Made by a program: the position numbers and the translations under genes | Notes under the pieces: model-generated | The model's database searches: none | What the model saw: only the letters and a program-made list of their open reading frames with translations | What the model was told of the DNA's origin: nothing | Shown: piece after piece, positions 3,927 through 17,692 of the stretch | Layout: every line of letters starts with the position of its first letter | Numbering within the stretch: position 1 is the first letter of the stretch | From: Prolixibacteraceae bacterium | GTDB lineage: Bacteria > Bacteroidota > Bacteroidia > Bacteroidales > Prolixibacteraceae | Reading direction: 5' to 3' | Assembly (NCBI GenBank): GCA_009773765.1 | Contig: WTWZ01000047.1 | Coordinates: forward strand, 1-40,044 | Length of the DNA: 40,044 nucleotides

Positions 3927-4373
3927 TCAATCCCAAACGTACCGTTCATCAAAATCAATTTCATATTCTTTGAAAAATTGACGTAACTCATCCTTGTAAT
4001 TGGCCTGTTTATGATGCTCTGGCTGCTTACGGATATAATTTTCCACCGTGGCAACCTTAGATGAACTAACCGAAAAAATGCCATAACCATCCTGCCAGTC
4101 AAAATCATGTATTCCTTTGGTTTTTATCCATTTGGAAGATGATGTCTTAATTTTTGACACAAGATTCGCCATTGTCAGGGTTCGGGGCAGTGTGCATAAA
4201 ATATGGATATGATCAGGATTTGCATATATTTCATAAGTAAAAATACCCAGATTTGATAATGTTCCGACCATGTACGATTGTAATTCGGGTCTAACAACTT
4301 CATAAATAAATGGAAATCCTGTTTTTGTGGTGAATACAATGTGAATGTACACTTTTGCTAATGATTGTGGCAT
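3927..4373 (-). CDS. IS200-like Y1 transposase, REP-associated (RAYT)
   Basis: A 148-residue Y1_Tnp (HUH) single-strand DNA transposase. The HUH pair appears as DHIHILC near residue 54, and the catalytic tyrosine is in ENYIRKQPEHHK near residue 112. The C-terminus EIDFDERYVWD is typical of the Bacteroidota branch of this family. Length is full for the family, so it may be active. No tnpB follows. In the family the enzyme cleaves and rejoins hairpin ends of single-stranded DNA. Here the likely substrates are the repeats on both sides. Confidence 0.9.
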   Translation of the reverse strand: MPQSLAKVYIHIVFTTKTGFPFIYEVVRPELQSYMVGTLSNLGIFTYEIYANPDHIHILCTLPRTLTMANLVSKIKTSSSKWIKTKGIHDFDWQDGYGIFSVSSSKVATVENYIRKQPEHHKQANYKDELRQFFKEYEIDFDERYVWD

Positions 4374-4410
4374 AATTTGGATTTTTTGTATTTCTTAATT
4401 GTTTCATTTT

Positions 4411-4527
4411 CACAGGCTTGCAGCCTGTGCTTTTACAGATCGTCCTTTCAGGACTTGTTCGAATTAAACGAAACAGGGGCAACGCCCCGACCTGTAACAG
4501 CATAGGTAAAACCCTGTGTATTTGTGC
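4411..4527 (+). repeat. Hairpin cluster with the right REP-like copy
   Basis: Three structures in a row: CACAGGCT-TGC-AGCCTGTG (4411-4429), GTCCT-TTC-AGGAC (4442-4454), and the double hairpin 4472-4527 that matches the left copy (GGGGC-AAC-GCCCC, then a shorter second stem). They sit upstream of the transposase start and directly downstream of the GH5 gene stop. Confidence 0.7.
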
Positions 4528-4550
4528 AGAACTAATTGAAATACAATTCA

Positions 4551-5693
4551 TCAATATTTCTGCAGCAACGTCAGCAGTTTGCGGTCGAGTTTCTGCCCGT
4601 GCCAGTCTTCGTACTGAATATCTTTGCGGCCCGAGTTGAGGACGCCAAAAGTTCCCCTGAATTCCCAAAGTGCAAAACCAATCCCATGTTCAGATAAAAC
4701 ACTAAGCACATCATCAAACCAGGCAAGGAAAACATTGTGCGGGGTTTCGTTCCAGCAGCCACATTCGCCGCAATGCACGCCAACGCCTTTATTCACGGCG
4801 TCAATCCAGGGGGCATAAAACTTTTCGAGGCTGGCACGGTTAAATTCACGGCCTTCGATGGTTCCTGGCCAAACGGGTTTTGGCGCATCATCGGGGTTTT
4901 TAAATACCCACGGCGCGCGGTAATGCGATATATAATGCGGAAAATAACCCCGGCAACTCTGCCCGATGGGCAAATCGAAAATCTCTGGAATCACATCGCT
5001 TCCTACATTATTTCCATCAGCAATTACTAAATGGTTGGGGTTGTGTGACCGGATTGTTTCGAGTGACTTTTTGGCCACCTCACGGTAAAGTTCACCCGGA
5101 ATTGGTCCGCGGCGCGAATGCTGGTCATTCATATCTTCGCGGGTACAAGGCTCGTTCACCAAATCGAAACTGATTTGTTTTTGCGTTTTCGAAGCAAACC
5201 GTTTCGCCCACATTCCCCAATGAAAGTAAAATGCTTCCTGTGCTTCCTTGTCTTTCCACAAATTGTATGGTTCATTAAAACCGGCGTTCACACAAAATCC
5301 GGGGGCGCGGTGCAGGTTCAAACTCACATGCAACCCGAGTTTATTTGCCAGATCAACAATCTTTTCCACCTGATCAATTGCCGCCTCATCAATATTATAA
5401 ATATCTTCCGGGGCAATGTCTTTCGATCGGTCGAATTTTACATATCGCGGATACGCCATTGGAAACCGCACAAAATCAAAGCCCCAGTCGGCCATCCATT
5501 TAAAATCGTCCCCGGTTGTTATAGCATAACTGTTATGCACATCCGGGGAAAAATAATCGAGCAGGTTAAATCCCTTCCATTTAGGCAGTTTGTTTGCAAC
5601 TGTTTTTACTGAATTTGCATAAGCCAGGTTCCCGGCCAAACCTACCCCGGCGGCAACGGCACCGGTGGTTTTAATAAAATTTCGACGTTCCAT
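4551..5693 (-). CDS. Exported GH5-like glycoside hydrolase (cellulase family)
   Basis: A 380-residue protein beginning with a Tat-like leader: Arg-Arg at residues 3-4, then IKTTGAVAAGVGLAGN and a hydrophobic stretch ending near residue 26. The body is a GH5-type TIM barrel. FDLVNEP gives the acid/base Glu at residue 181, HCGECG near residue 310 supplies the likely nucleophile Glu, and ALWEFRG near the end is the strand-8 motif. GH5 enzymes are retaining beta-glycosidases (endoglucanases, mannanases and others); the substrate here is unknown. A good promoter lies just upstream, giving a very short leader of about 20 nt. No SusC/SusD genes are nearby. Confidence 0.85.
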   Translation of the reverse strand: MERRNFIKTTGAVAAGVGLAGNLAYANSVKTVANKLPKWKGFNLLDYFSPDVHNSYAITTGDDFKWMADWGFDFVRFPMAYPRYVKFDRSKDIAPEDIYNIDEAAIDQVEKIVDLANKLGLHVSLNLHRAPGFCVNAGFNEPYNLWKDKEAQEAFYFHWGMWAKRFASKTQKQISFDLVNEPCTREDMNDQHSRRGPIPGELYREVAKKSLETIRSHNPNHLVIADGNNVGSDVIPEIFDLPIGQSCRGYFPHYISHYRAPWVFKNPDDAPKPVWPGTIEGREFNRASLEKFYAPWIDAVNKGVGVHCGECGCWNETPHNVFLAWFDDVLSVLSEHGIGFALWEFRGTFGVLNSGRKDIQYEDWHGQKLDRKLLTLLQKY

Positions 5694-13661: not shown

Positions 13662-14087
13662 ATGTCTTATAAGAAACTGGAAATATGGCAGATTGCGAAT
13701 GACCTGGTCATCAAAATTCATAAGATGACATTGGTTGAACTTCCTGCTTTCGAGATGTATGAAGAAGGTAGTCAGATAAGACGTTCTTCAAAATCTGTAA
13801 AATCGTTAATTATTGAGGGATATGGCAGAAGAATTTACAAACAGGATTTTTTACGTTTTCTGGTTAGTTCGATAGCATCTAATGACGAAACAATTGACCA
13901 CTTGGAGAATTTATACAACACCGAATCATTAACAAACAAACAACTTTACCTCGAACTGCACGAAAAAATAGAATTACTGGGAAGAAAATTAAACAACTTT
14001 ATAAATGCAGTTCAAATAAAGCACAACATAGTTTCAGAGCCGGAATCGTATTATCAATTACCAGATGTTGAGAATCAGGAACTCTGA
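13662..14087 (+). CDS. Four-helix bundle protein (S23/IVP-like)
   Basis: A 141-residue, mostly helical protein. The start MSYKKLEIWQIANDLVIKIHK and the RRSSKSVKSLIIEGYGR motif near residues 45-61 define the four-helix-bundle family once named 23S rRNA intervening-sequence protein (S23). Members occur inside rRNA intervening sequences and as free genes between repeats, and their role is unknown. Here the gene sits between two short tandem repeats in opposite orientation, which suggests it travelled as a unit. The C-terminal QLPDVENQEL runs into the right repeat. Confidence 0.85.
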   Translation: MSYKKLEIWQIANDLVIKIHKMTLVELPAFEMYEEGSQIRRSSKSVKSLIIEGYGRRIYKQDFLRFLVSSIASNDETIDHLENLYNTESLTNKQLYLELHEKIELLGRKLNNFINAVQIKHNIVSEPESYYQLPDVENQEL

Positions 14088-14126
14088 ATCAAGCATCCAG
14101 AATCAAGTATCCAGAATCAAGTATCA
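14086..14126. repeat. 14-bp tandem repeat (gaatcaagtatcca)
   Basis: Three 14-nt units (gaatcaagcatcca, gaatcaagtatcca, gaatcaagtatca) start within the stop codon of the four-helix-bundle gene and end 28 nt before nifJ. Confidence 0.7.
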
Positions 14127-14153: not shown

Positions 14154-17100
14154 ATGACAAAGCAGAAAAAATTTACAACATGCGACGGTAACTATGCAGC
14201 AGCATATATAAGTTACATGTTTAGCGAAGTTGCCTGTATTTATCCGATTACCCCATCATCAACCATGGCAGAGTATGTTGATGAGTGGGCTGCATTTGGT
14301 AAAAAGAACATGTTTGGCCGCCCGGTCCGTCTGGCAGAAATGCAAAGCGAAGGTGGCGCTGCCGGCGCTGTTCACGGAGCGCTGCAATCGGGCGCGTTAA
14401 CTTCAACATTTACAGCATCACAGGGATTATTGCTGATGATCCCAAATATGTATAAAATTGCCGGTGAATTGTTGCCAACCGTTTTCCATGTTAGCGCGCG
14501 TGCATTGGCAGGGCATGCCTTGTCGATTTTTGGCGACCATAGCGATATTTATGCTGCACGCCAGACAGGTTTTGCCATGATTGCATCCGGTTCAGTTCAG
14601 GAAGAAATGGATTTGGCAGGTGTTGCGCACCTGGCAACCATCAAATCAAGGGTTCCATTCCTTGCATTCTTCGACGGGTTTAGAACTTCGCACGAAGTAC
14701 AAAAAATTGAAGCCATCCAAATGGAAGACATTGTTCCGCTGGTTGACCAGGAAGCATTGCAGGAATTCCGCAACCGTGCCCTGAATCCTGAAAACCCGAA
14801 GACCCGCGGTACAGCCCAGAATCCTGAAATTTTCTTTCAGGCAAAAGAAGCGTCTAACCGGTTTTACGATGCCGTTCCTGATATTGTGGCCGATTATATG
14901 GATCAAATCAGCGAATTAACAGGCAGAAAGTATCGCCCATTCAATTATTACGGCGATCCGGAAGCGGAAAATATCATCATCGCCATGGGATCGGTCACTG
15001 AAACCATTCGCGAAACCATCGATTACTTGAGCGCCCAGGGTAAAAAAGTAGGATTGCTTTCCATTCATTTGTTCCGCCCGTTCTCGGCAAAACATTTTGC
15101 TGAGGCGCTTCCAAAATCGTTAAAACGCATTGCCGTTCTCGACCGTGCAAAAGAACCGGGAGCAGTCGGCGAACCACTTTATCTCGATATCAGGTCCTAT
15201 TTCTACGGAAAAGAAAATGCCCCGGTAATTGTTGGCGGACGTTACGGTTTAGGGTCGAAAGACACCACCCCTTCGCAGATTCTTTCTGTGTATGAAAACC
15301 TGGAAATGAACGAACCCAAAGCCGGTTTCACTATTGGTATTGTCGATGATGTTACCTTTAAATCGCTCCCGCTAAAACCGGAAATCGATATGACGCCAAA
15401 AGGGACCAAACAGGCTAAATTTTATGGTTTGGGTTCCGACGGAACTGTTGGCGCCAATAAAAATTCAATCAAAATTATTGGCGATGCCACTGAAAAATAT
15501 TGCCAGGGGTACTTCCAGTACGACTCGAAAAAATCGGGCGGTTTCACATGTTCCCACCTCCGCTTTGGCGACAAACAGATTCGTTCAACCTATTTGGTTA
15601 CAACACCAGACTTTGTCGCCTGCCATGTTCCTGCATATATACATCTATATGATGTTTTAAAGGGATTGAAAAAAGGTGGCTCATTTCTGCTGAACTCTAT
15701 TTGGGATGAAGAAGAAACCAAAAAACAGTTGCCCGGCCACATGAAAAAGTACCTTGCCGAAAACGAAATCAATTTCTATATTATCAATGGTACCCAGCTG
15801 GGCGAAGATTTAGGTTTGGGAACCCGCACCAACACCATAATGCAATCGGCATTCTTTAAAATTTCAGGAGTAATCCCCTATTCGATTGCCGTTGACGAAA
15901 TGAAAAAAGCCATTGTCAAAACATATGGTAATAAAGGGGAGCAAATTGTAAACATGAACTTTGCCGCTGTTGACGCTGGCGGTAAAAATATTACCAAAGT
16001 TGAAGTTCCGATAGAATGGAAAAACGTTGTTATTCAAGGTTCGAACGGTGAAGGCGACCGTCCTGACTATATAATTAAAGTTGTTGATGTAATTAATGGC
16101 CAGCGTGGCGATGATCTTCCGGTTTCAACCTTTACAGGTTATGAGGACGGCACATTCGAAATGGGTACTTCAGCTTACGAAAAACGCGGAATTGCGGTGC
16201 ATGTTCCCGAATGGCAGGCCGAAAACTGTATCCAGTGCAACCAATGCGCCTATGTTTGCCCTCATGCTGCAATCCGTCCGTTCCTGTTAACAGGGCAGGA
16301 AGTGGAAAATGCACCTGAAGGTACAGAAGTTCGCGCTGCCACACCGGCAAAAACCTTTGGCGGGTTAAATTTCCGCATTCAGGTAAGCGTACTCGACTGC
16401 ACAGGTTGCGGTAATTGTGCCGATGTTTGCCCATCGAAAGAAAAAGCATTGATTATGAAATCGCTGGGTTCTCAGCTTTCCGAAGTTGAGCGATGGAACT
16501 ACATGGACAAAAAAGTTTCACTTAAAGAAAAAGTGGTCGATAAATTCCAGTCGGTTAAAAATTCGCAGTTTGCACAACCTTTGTTTGAGTTCTCCGGGGC
16601 TTGCGCCGGTTGCGGTGAAACGCCTTATATTAAACTGATTACGCAGCTTTACGGCGAAAGGATGATGATTGCCAATGCAACCGGATGTTCTTCAATTTAT
16701 GGCGGCTCGGCTCCGGCAACACCATATTGCAAACACAAAGATTCGGGACATGGGCCAACCTGGGCAAATTCATTGTTCGAAGATAATGCCGAATATAGTT
16801 TCGGTTTTGCCGAAGGTGTTCAGGCGCAGCGCGAACGCATTGCTGCTATCATGGAAGAAGCACTGAAAAATGGCGCCCCTGCCGCTATGAAAGTTGCATT
16901 TTCTGAATGGCTTGTCGGCATAAACAATGCCAATGCTTCGATAGTTGCCTCTGAGAAAGTTAAAGCGGCCATTGCCGGAAGCAACAGCAGTTACGCCAGG
17001 GAAATTTCGAAACTGGCGCAATACCTGGTTAAAAAGTCAATCTGGGCATTTGGCGGCGATGGTTGGGCTTACGATATTGGCTACGGCGGATTAGACCACG

Positions 17101-17222
17101 TGATGGCCAGTGGTCAGGATATAAATATTCTGGTGATGGATACCGAGGTTTATTCCCTATTGGTGCAGTTGCGAAATTTGCTGCCTCAGGTAAACGTGTT
17201 CGTAAAAAAGACCTTGGCATGA
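14154..17222 (+). CDS. nifJ: Pyruvate:ferredoxin (flavodoxin) oxidoreductase, frameshifted before the C-terminus
   Basis: The first 1022 codons of a single-chain PFOR, which turns pyruvate and CoA into acetyl-CoA, CO2 and reduced ferredoxin. Domain order: the pyrimidine-binding domain (GNYAAAYISYMFSEVACIYP), the transketolase-C-like domain II, the gamma-type domain, and a 2x[4Fe-4S] ferredoxin domain with CIQCNQCAYVCP near residue 691 and CTGCGNCADVCP near 750. The TPP-binding domain follows, with a proximal-cluster site CAGCGE and the TPP/Mg motif GDGWAYDIGYGG near residue 967. Normal sequence continues to DTEVYS. There a deletion of about 31 nt at 17156/17157 removes the conserved NTGGQSSKATP loop and shifts the frame, so the chain ends 22 codons later. 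Residues 1-1001 look intact. Confidence 0.9.
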   Translation: MTKQKKFTTCDGNYAAAYISYMFSEVACIYPITPSSTMAEYVDEWAAFGKKNMFGRPVRLAEMQSEGGAAGAVHGALQSGALTSTFTASQGLLLMIPNMYKIAGELLPTVFHVSARALAGHALSIFGDHSDIYAARQTGFAMIASGSVQEEMDLAGVAHLATIKSRVPFLAFFDGFRTSHEVQKIEAIQMEDIVPLVDQEALQEFRNRALNPENPKTRGTAQNPEIFFQAKEASNRFYDAVPDIVADYMDQISELTGRKYRPFNYYGDPEAENIIIAMGSVTETIRETIDYLSAQGKKVGLLSIHLFRPFSAKHFAEALPKSLKRIAVLDRAKEPGAVGEPLYLDIRSYFYGKENAPVIVGGRYGLGSKDTTPSQILSVYENLEMNEPKAGFTIGIVDDVTFKSLPLKPEIDMTPKGTKQAKFYGLGSDGTVGANKNSIKIIGDATEKYCQGYFQYDSKKSGGFTCSHLRFGDKQIRSTYLVTTPDFVACHVPAYIHLYDVLKGLKKGGSFLLNSIWDEEETKKQLPGHMKKYLAENEINFYIINGTQLGEDLGLGTRTNTIMQSAFFKISGVIPYSIAVDEMKKAIVKTYGNKGEQIVNMNFAAVDAGGKNITKVEVPIEWKNVVIQGSNGEGDRPDYIIKVVDVINGQRGDDLPVSTFTGYEDGTFEMGTSAYEKRGIAVHVPEWQAENCIQCNQCAYVCPHAAIRPFLLTGQEVENAPEGTEVRAATPAKTFGGLNFRIQVSVLDCTGCGNCADVCPSKEKALIMKSLGSQLSEVERWNYMDKKVSLKEKVVDKFQSVKNSQFAQPLFEFSGACAGCGETPYIKLITQLYGERMMIANATGCSSIYGGSAPATPYCKHKDSGHGPTWANSLFEDNAEYSFGFAEGVQAQRERIAAIMEEALKNGAPAAMKVAFSEWLVGINNANASIVASEKVKAAIAGSNSSYAREISKLAQYLVKKSIWAFGGDGWAYDIGYGGLDHVMASGQDINILVMDTEVYSLLVQLRNLLPQVNVFVKKTLA

Positions 17223-17692
17223 TGATGATGTCATACGGTTATGTTTACGTGGCACAGGTGGCCATGGGCGCTAACCAGTTGCAATTTATGAAAGCGCTAA
17301 AAGAAGCGGAAGCCTATCCGGGACCTTCGCTTATTATTGCCTATTCGCCGTGTATCAATCATGGATTACGGGCAAGCATGGGAAAAACACAGGAAGAAGA
17401 GAAAAAAGCGGTTGAGGCAGGTTACTGGAGTTTGTTCCGTTACAATCCGCTATTGGAAAACGAAGGGAAAAACCCATTCCAGTTGGATTCGAAAGAACCC
17501 GATTGGAGTAAGTTCCAGGAATTCCTGAATGGTGAAGTTCGTTACTCTTCCCTGAGAAATACCTTCCCGGCAGTTGCCGATCAGTTGTTTACATCGGCAG
17601 AAGAAAACGCAAAATGGCGGCACAATTCGTACAAACGGATGGCTGCCATGGATTTCTCGAATGCCTCTCCCAGCCTCTCCAAAGGAGAGTAG
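17157..17692 (+). pseudogene. nifJ: nifJ C-terminal part in the +2 frame
   Basis: From 17159 the frame reads IGAVAKFAASGKRVRKKDLGMM and continues with normal PFOR sequence (AYPGPSLIIAYSPCINHGLR, WSLFRYNP) to the end. It has no start of its own next to the junction, although an open frame begins at 17063. Re-inserting about 31 nt would restore one protein of roughly 1,200 residues. Its last residues NASPSLSKGE are encoded by a GC-rich mini-repeat and do not look like native PFOR sequence. Confidence 0.8.
17663..17690. repeat. GC-rich mini-repeat forming the nifJ 3' end
   Basis: It contains CTCTCC-AAA-GGAGAG (17675-17689), a perfect 6-bp hairpin, preceded by a second CTCTCC. It supplies the last codons and stop of nifJ. 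Confidence 0.6.

Follow-up and report, generated by a model that had tools for sequence, protein, structure and literature searches.

A 31-nt gap in the only NifJ-type PFOR gene found in a Prolixibacteraceae draft genome, most likely a local assembly error

Introduction

Does the broken nifJ of a Prolixibacteraceae bacterium record the loss of its PFOR (pyruvate:ferredoxin oxidoreductase), or a fault in its draft sequence? The gene lies in the window, by which we mean the whole stretch of DNA analyzed, positions 1 to 40,044 of contig WTWZ01000047.1 (assembly GCA_009773765.1). The first-pass annotation, which considered this sequence alone, proposed that about 31 nt were missing, that this was "not a random frameshift," and that a genuine loss would be striking biologically, while itself naming assembly error as the possibility that would refute the claim. 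Here we compare the gene with its relatives, the genome with its genus, and the nifJ break with breaks in other genes of the same assembly. The deletion is very probably a local assembly error, arising from a wrong contig join or gap closing.

Results

Structure of the nifJ break. The 5' part of nifJ runs in frame on the plus strand from 14154 to 17155, where it ends in DTEVYS. The ORF that contains it (14154-17222, 1,022 amino acids) continues from 17157 with 21 out-of-frame residues foreign to PFOR and closes with TGA at 17222. Frame translation regains the PFOR reading at 17156, now in the -1 frame, and carries it through to 17692, so that DTEVYS joins directly to the shifted frame, as had been described. 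DNA alignment to a same-genus copy, a comparison with close PFORs that the first-pass annotation had called for, shows that precisely 31 nt are missing, in a single gap at 17155/17156, a C-run there leaving the gap point uncertain by 1 to 2 nt. The junction (17155-17157), where nifJ lacks 31 nt that the related loci read possess, falls inside the interval of 17140-17180 suspected at the outset, and the estimated size was accurate.

The two pieces match the NCBIfam model TIGR02176 at positions 1-994 and 1005-1167 of 1167, the 5' piece with 1610.8 bits (cut-off, 911.35) and the 3' piece with 260.1 bits for the remainder of the model. With a match that exceeds the curated cut-off and extends over the entire model, the window gene is thus a NifJ, or homodimeric PFOR, a family that includes the solved chains 1b0p, 7plm, and 6cin, which we take to come from Desulfovibrio africanus and Moorella. 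It covers the model except for 10 positions and is 83 to 87% identical to most same-genus NifJ copies and 69% identical to one. Unlike these proteins it is 31 nt short and loses its frame past DTEVYS; instead of one unbroken ORF of ~1,180 to 1,200 amino acids, there is the 1,022-residue ORF and a shifted remainder. No direct repeat of at least 8 nt within 120 nt was found in the interval 17000-17300, and we reject repeat-mediated deletion on this ground. The same lack offers no explanation for a mis-join and counts against assembly error.

Several other features of the window were seen in passing. An inverted repeat, CTCTCC-AAA-GGAGAG, noticed by eye at 17675-17692, spans the final nifJ codons and yields the tail PSLSKGE. 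Immediately upstream of nifJ, positions 14085-14126 hold ccagaatcaagtat-like short tandem repeats (also by eye), which are preceded by a gene for a four-helix protein of the 23S rRNA-intervening type. On the minus strand, 3927-5693 carries an IS200-like transposase ORF and a GH5 cellulase ORF, both overlapped by a 122-amino-acid ORF with no Pfam match.

The deleted segment. Among 109 relative loci (L006-L114, some genomes being represented twice), 103 matched the pattern GDGWAYDIG.GGLDHV and were thereby readable, and in all 103 NTGGQ[SA]SK follows DTE[VI]YS. The window nifJ lacks this segment, which upholds the claim that a conserved stretch is gone. Loci L049, L072, L096, L100, L104, and L111 did not match the pattern and were left out of the count; L072 nonetheless shows NTGGQ in a separate motif search with a narrower pattern. 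Among 29 PFORs of the genus, 8 of the 10 lost residues are invariant, including all five of NTGGQ, with which they begin. To call this one of the most conserved loops of the enzyme is nonetheless too strong, since 37% of all 10-residue windows in the same 29 proteins are at least as invariant. A random short deletion in PFOR would often strike a comparably conserved stretch.

In chain 7plm_A, residue 995 corresponds to the last residue of the retained DTEVYS, which makes residue 996 the first one lost. Passages of PMC5020499 describe Asn996 of DaPFOR as lining the pyruvate pocket and rotating upon pyruvate binding and, for the Sulfolobus enzymes, Mg bound by a GDG motif and Asn118b, with Leu123b corresponding to Asn996. 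Applied to Asn118b, the offset between Leu123b and Asn996 would place it at residue 991, which is the Thr in the retained DTEV. Both the GDG motif and the DTEV segment, the parts that hold Mg and TPP, lie upstream of the junction and are intact in the window nifJ; the active-site segment with Asn996 and NTGGQ is missing. We take Thr991 and Val993 to be Mg ligands. With Asn996 the first residue lost and GDG and DTEV kept, the deletion removes a substrate-pocket segment and not the Mg ligands. The label "TPP/Mg loop" was therefore inexact. The frameshift also removes from the first ORF all PFOR sequence 3' of the lost segment.

Selection on nifJ. Between the window nifJ and six relatives, dN/dS is 0.044 to 0.062 in the 5' part and 0.038 to 0.070 in the 3' part, against 0.040 to 0.050 and 0.025 to 0.074, respectively, in four pairs of intact relatives, all of these values being rough because synonymous sites are near saturation. 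Both sides of the junction thus appear to show purifying selection, as had been supposed. The 5' values of the window nifJ lie slightly above those of the relatives, which we count against assembly error. At otherwise invariant sites, the window nifJ has private changes at 13 of 660 positions (5') and 1 of 87 (3'), and its nearest relative at 11 of 672 and 2 of 97. The 5' number is the highest among 30 sequences compared, near that of the closest relative, the others having 0 to 7; this excess, too, would speak against assembly error. Decay of nifJ is not clearly indicated by these comparisons, which suggests that any loss is either very recent or technical.

PFOR in the genus and possible substitutes. 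A search of the genome for a second NifJ-type PFOR, another check that had been proposed, found none, and the window copy is the only one found. Matches on contigs C100 and C37 were rejected as a second PFOR, being partial only and belonging to other 2-oxoacid:ferredoxin oxidoreductases. Across the genus, PFOR is matched in 36 of 37 genomes, counting this one; the remaining genome is 73% complete. The 36 other genomes divide into 32 in which nifJ is matched to residue 1001, 3 with a partial match, and 1 with none. Two of the partial genes are spread over two contigs (G008) or cut at a contig start (G023). The third (G011, C6 18362-20986, in a genome 79% complete) is 39 residues short, lacking residues 143-181 in frame on one contig, so internal shortfalls occur outside the present genome too.

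E1-type domains occur at five places in the genome, of which three were typed: two fused E1 alpha-beta 2-oxoacid dehydrogenases and one 2-oxoglutarate dehydrogenase E1. Both fused proteins score under the curated pyruvate dehydrogenase cut-offs, and one of them adjoins an ORF that by eye resembles a lipoyl-domain E2. Bypass by pyruvate formate-lyase was rejected, as the sole match to the PFL family, a glycyl radical enzyme, is a trans-4-hydroxy-L-proline dehydratase.

Other broken genes in the same assembly. We surveyed 1.20 Mb of the genome (G000), about 28% of it, against ORFs of relatives. Best hits with stop codons (likely spurious reverse-frame ORFs), with less than 50% identity, or with less than 60% query coverage were dropped, which left 149 conserved gene places in a first count; the second count also dropped second pieces below 45% identity, which excluded one place on C32 (L245) with pieces flanking an N run, and gave 148. 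Frameshifts were present at 7 of these 148 places, 6 of them by at least 19 nt. Gene names in what follows are our readings of the sequences themselves, and sizes were taken from DNA alignment except as noted, since BLAST misjudged them at -4 for holB and -22 for the dipeptidase. The holB gene, for the delta' subunit of DNA polymerase III (C31 15637-16723; L244), has lost 35 nt; a xerD-like tyrosine recombinase gene (C16 1113-1918; L142) has lost 91 nt; and an MBL-fold gene (C21 142387-142954; L164 2387-2960) has lost 254 nt; all three are split by these losses. By BLAST offset, and judged against one distant relative only, a Gfo/Idh-type oxidoreductase gene (C84 about 13250; L249 3244) is short of 19 nt, in a segment that holds a GG motif. 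A dipeptidase gene (C21 about 130000; L163 9778-10735) has 19 extra nt and, separately, an in-frame shortfall of 168 nt that may be natural. By eye, its extra nucleotides include a near-copy of the neighboring sequence, as from unmerged contig ends. The seventh place has a 2-nt shift, seen by BLAST offset only.

For a control in the opposite direction, we took ORFs from the window and the first 40 stretches of the present genome (0.82 Mb together) and compared them with 1.2 Mb of G003, a single-contig genome and not a draft matched to this assembly. There, 8 of 100 places are frameshifted, none by at least 19 nt in DNA alignment. Seven conserved genes have 1-nt losses (L174, L189, L191, L210, L214, L220), as is typical of small-indel sequencing error or real frameshifts, and one place has 14 extra nt and small indels. 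The pattern in G003 differs from that in the present genome, being of the small-indel kind.

A full-length holB is present in 35 of the 36 other genomes of the genus, the remaining copy being split over contig ends; for xerD the number is 33, with no hit above the search threshold in the other 3. The MBL gene has a match in 28, none of them split, and no match in 8; 27 of these 28 matches extend across most of the protein, and one is distant (36%). A frame break within a contig was seen in none of the 36 for nifJ, holB, xerD, or the MBL gene. The genus searches found the last three broken inside a contig in the present genome alone, where any further match is incomplete or remote (36% identity for holB, 34% for xerD). 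Neither the holB nor the xerD break is on the contig that carries nifJ.

Discussion

Several unrelated conserved genes are broken in one assembly and intact in relatives. In Escherichia coli, the delta' subunit of DNA polymerase III is essential, and a living cell without it is not expected; a similar break in its gene, among others in the same assembly, therefore points to assembly and not to biology. In our proposal, a wrong contig join or gap closing would have dropped 31 nt of nifJ from the draft, one kind of technical cause may lie behind all of the breaks, and the sequencing reads would be expected to show the missing nifJ stretch. The draft consists of 118 contigs, and its surveyed stretches contain N runs, eight in all and from 1 to 61 nt long, against none in the 1.2 Mb of G003. 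Runs of such uneven length suggest that gap sizes were probably estimated during scaffolding. Cooley and Wright (2024; PMC11017572) report that assembly errors create many false pseudogenes, and our case resembles the spurious pseudogenes described there in that several conserved genes are broken in one assembly with relatives intact. It differs in that their abstract concerns frameshifts and internal stops in general, whereas the events here are losses of 19 to 254 nt. Also counting against assembly error are the statistics given for the genome (completeness, 99.91%; contamination, 1.27%) and the lengths of the deletions, which share no common size.

The leading alternative is a genuine and very recent deletion that inactivated the only NifJ-type PFOR of the strain, or of its dominant subpopulation, with pyruvate oxidation passing to 2-oxoacid dehydrogenase complexes. 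The nifJ gap is single and clean, a recent deletion would likewise leave both sides of the gene conserved, and the two fused E1 proteins, one of them beside its E2-like ORF, could offer a bypass. Nevertheless, we regard this explanation as unlikely. Both E1 proteins fall below the pyruvate dehydrogenase cut-offs (among the three of five E1 places typed), the sole PFL-family enzyme acts on hydroxyproline, PFOR is matched almost throughout the genus, and holB and xerD are similarly broken in the same assembly. If true, the deletion would mean that the only PFOR had been lost within an otherwise PFOR-bearing genus. The idea that the break was something other than a random frameshift, and a striking biological loss, does not sit well with similar losses in unrelated conserved genes.

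More doubtful still, with a slim chance at best, is that all of the deletions are real and that a recent wave of small internal deletions passed through the lineage or a subpopulation of it, affecting PFOR, XerD, and even delta'. We give next to no credence to the use of both nifJ ORFs as they are, by -1 recoding or as two polypeptides, to make a working PFOR variant that lacks the loop: the second frame is indeed -1 relative to the first and both pieces appear to be under purifying selection, but we reject programmed recoding, as the junction shows no slippery heptamer by eye and any product would in any case lack Asn996 and NTGGQ, present in every relative locus read, none of which has the same arrangement.

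Assembly error thus remains our preferred account of the nifJ deletion, and the organism itself probably still carries an intact nifJ. The finding serves mainly as a caution: this is a draft genome with several false-looking pseudogenes, and claims of gene loss drawn from it need the support of reads.
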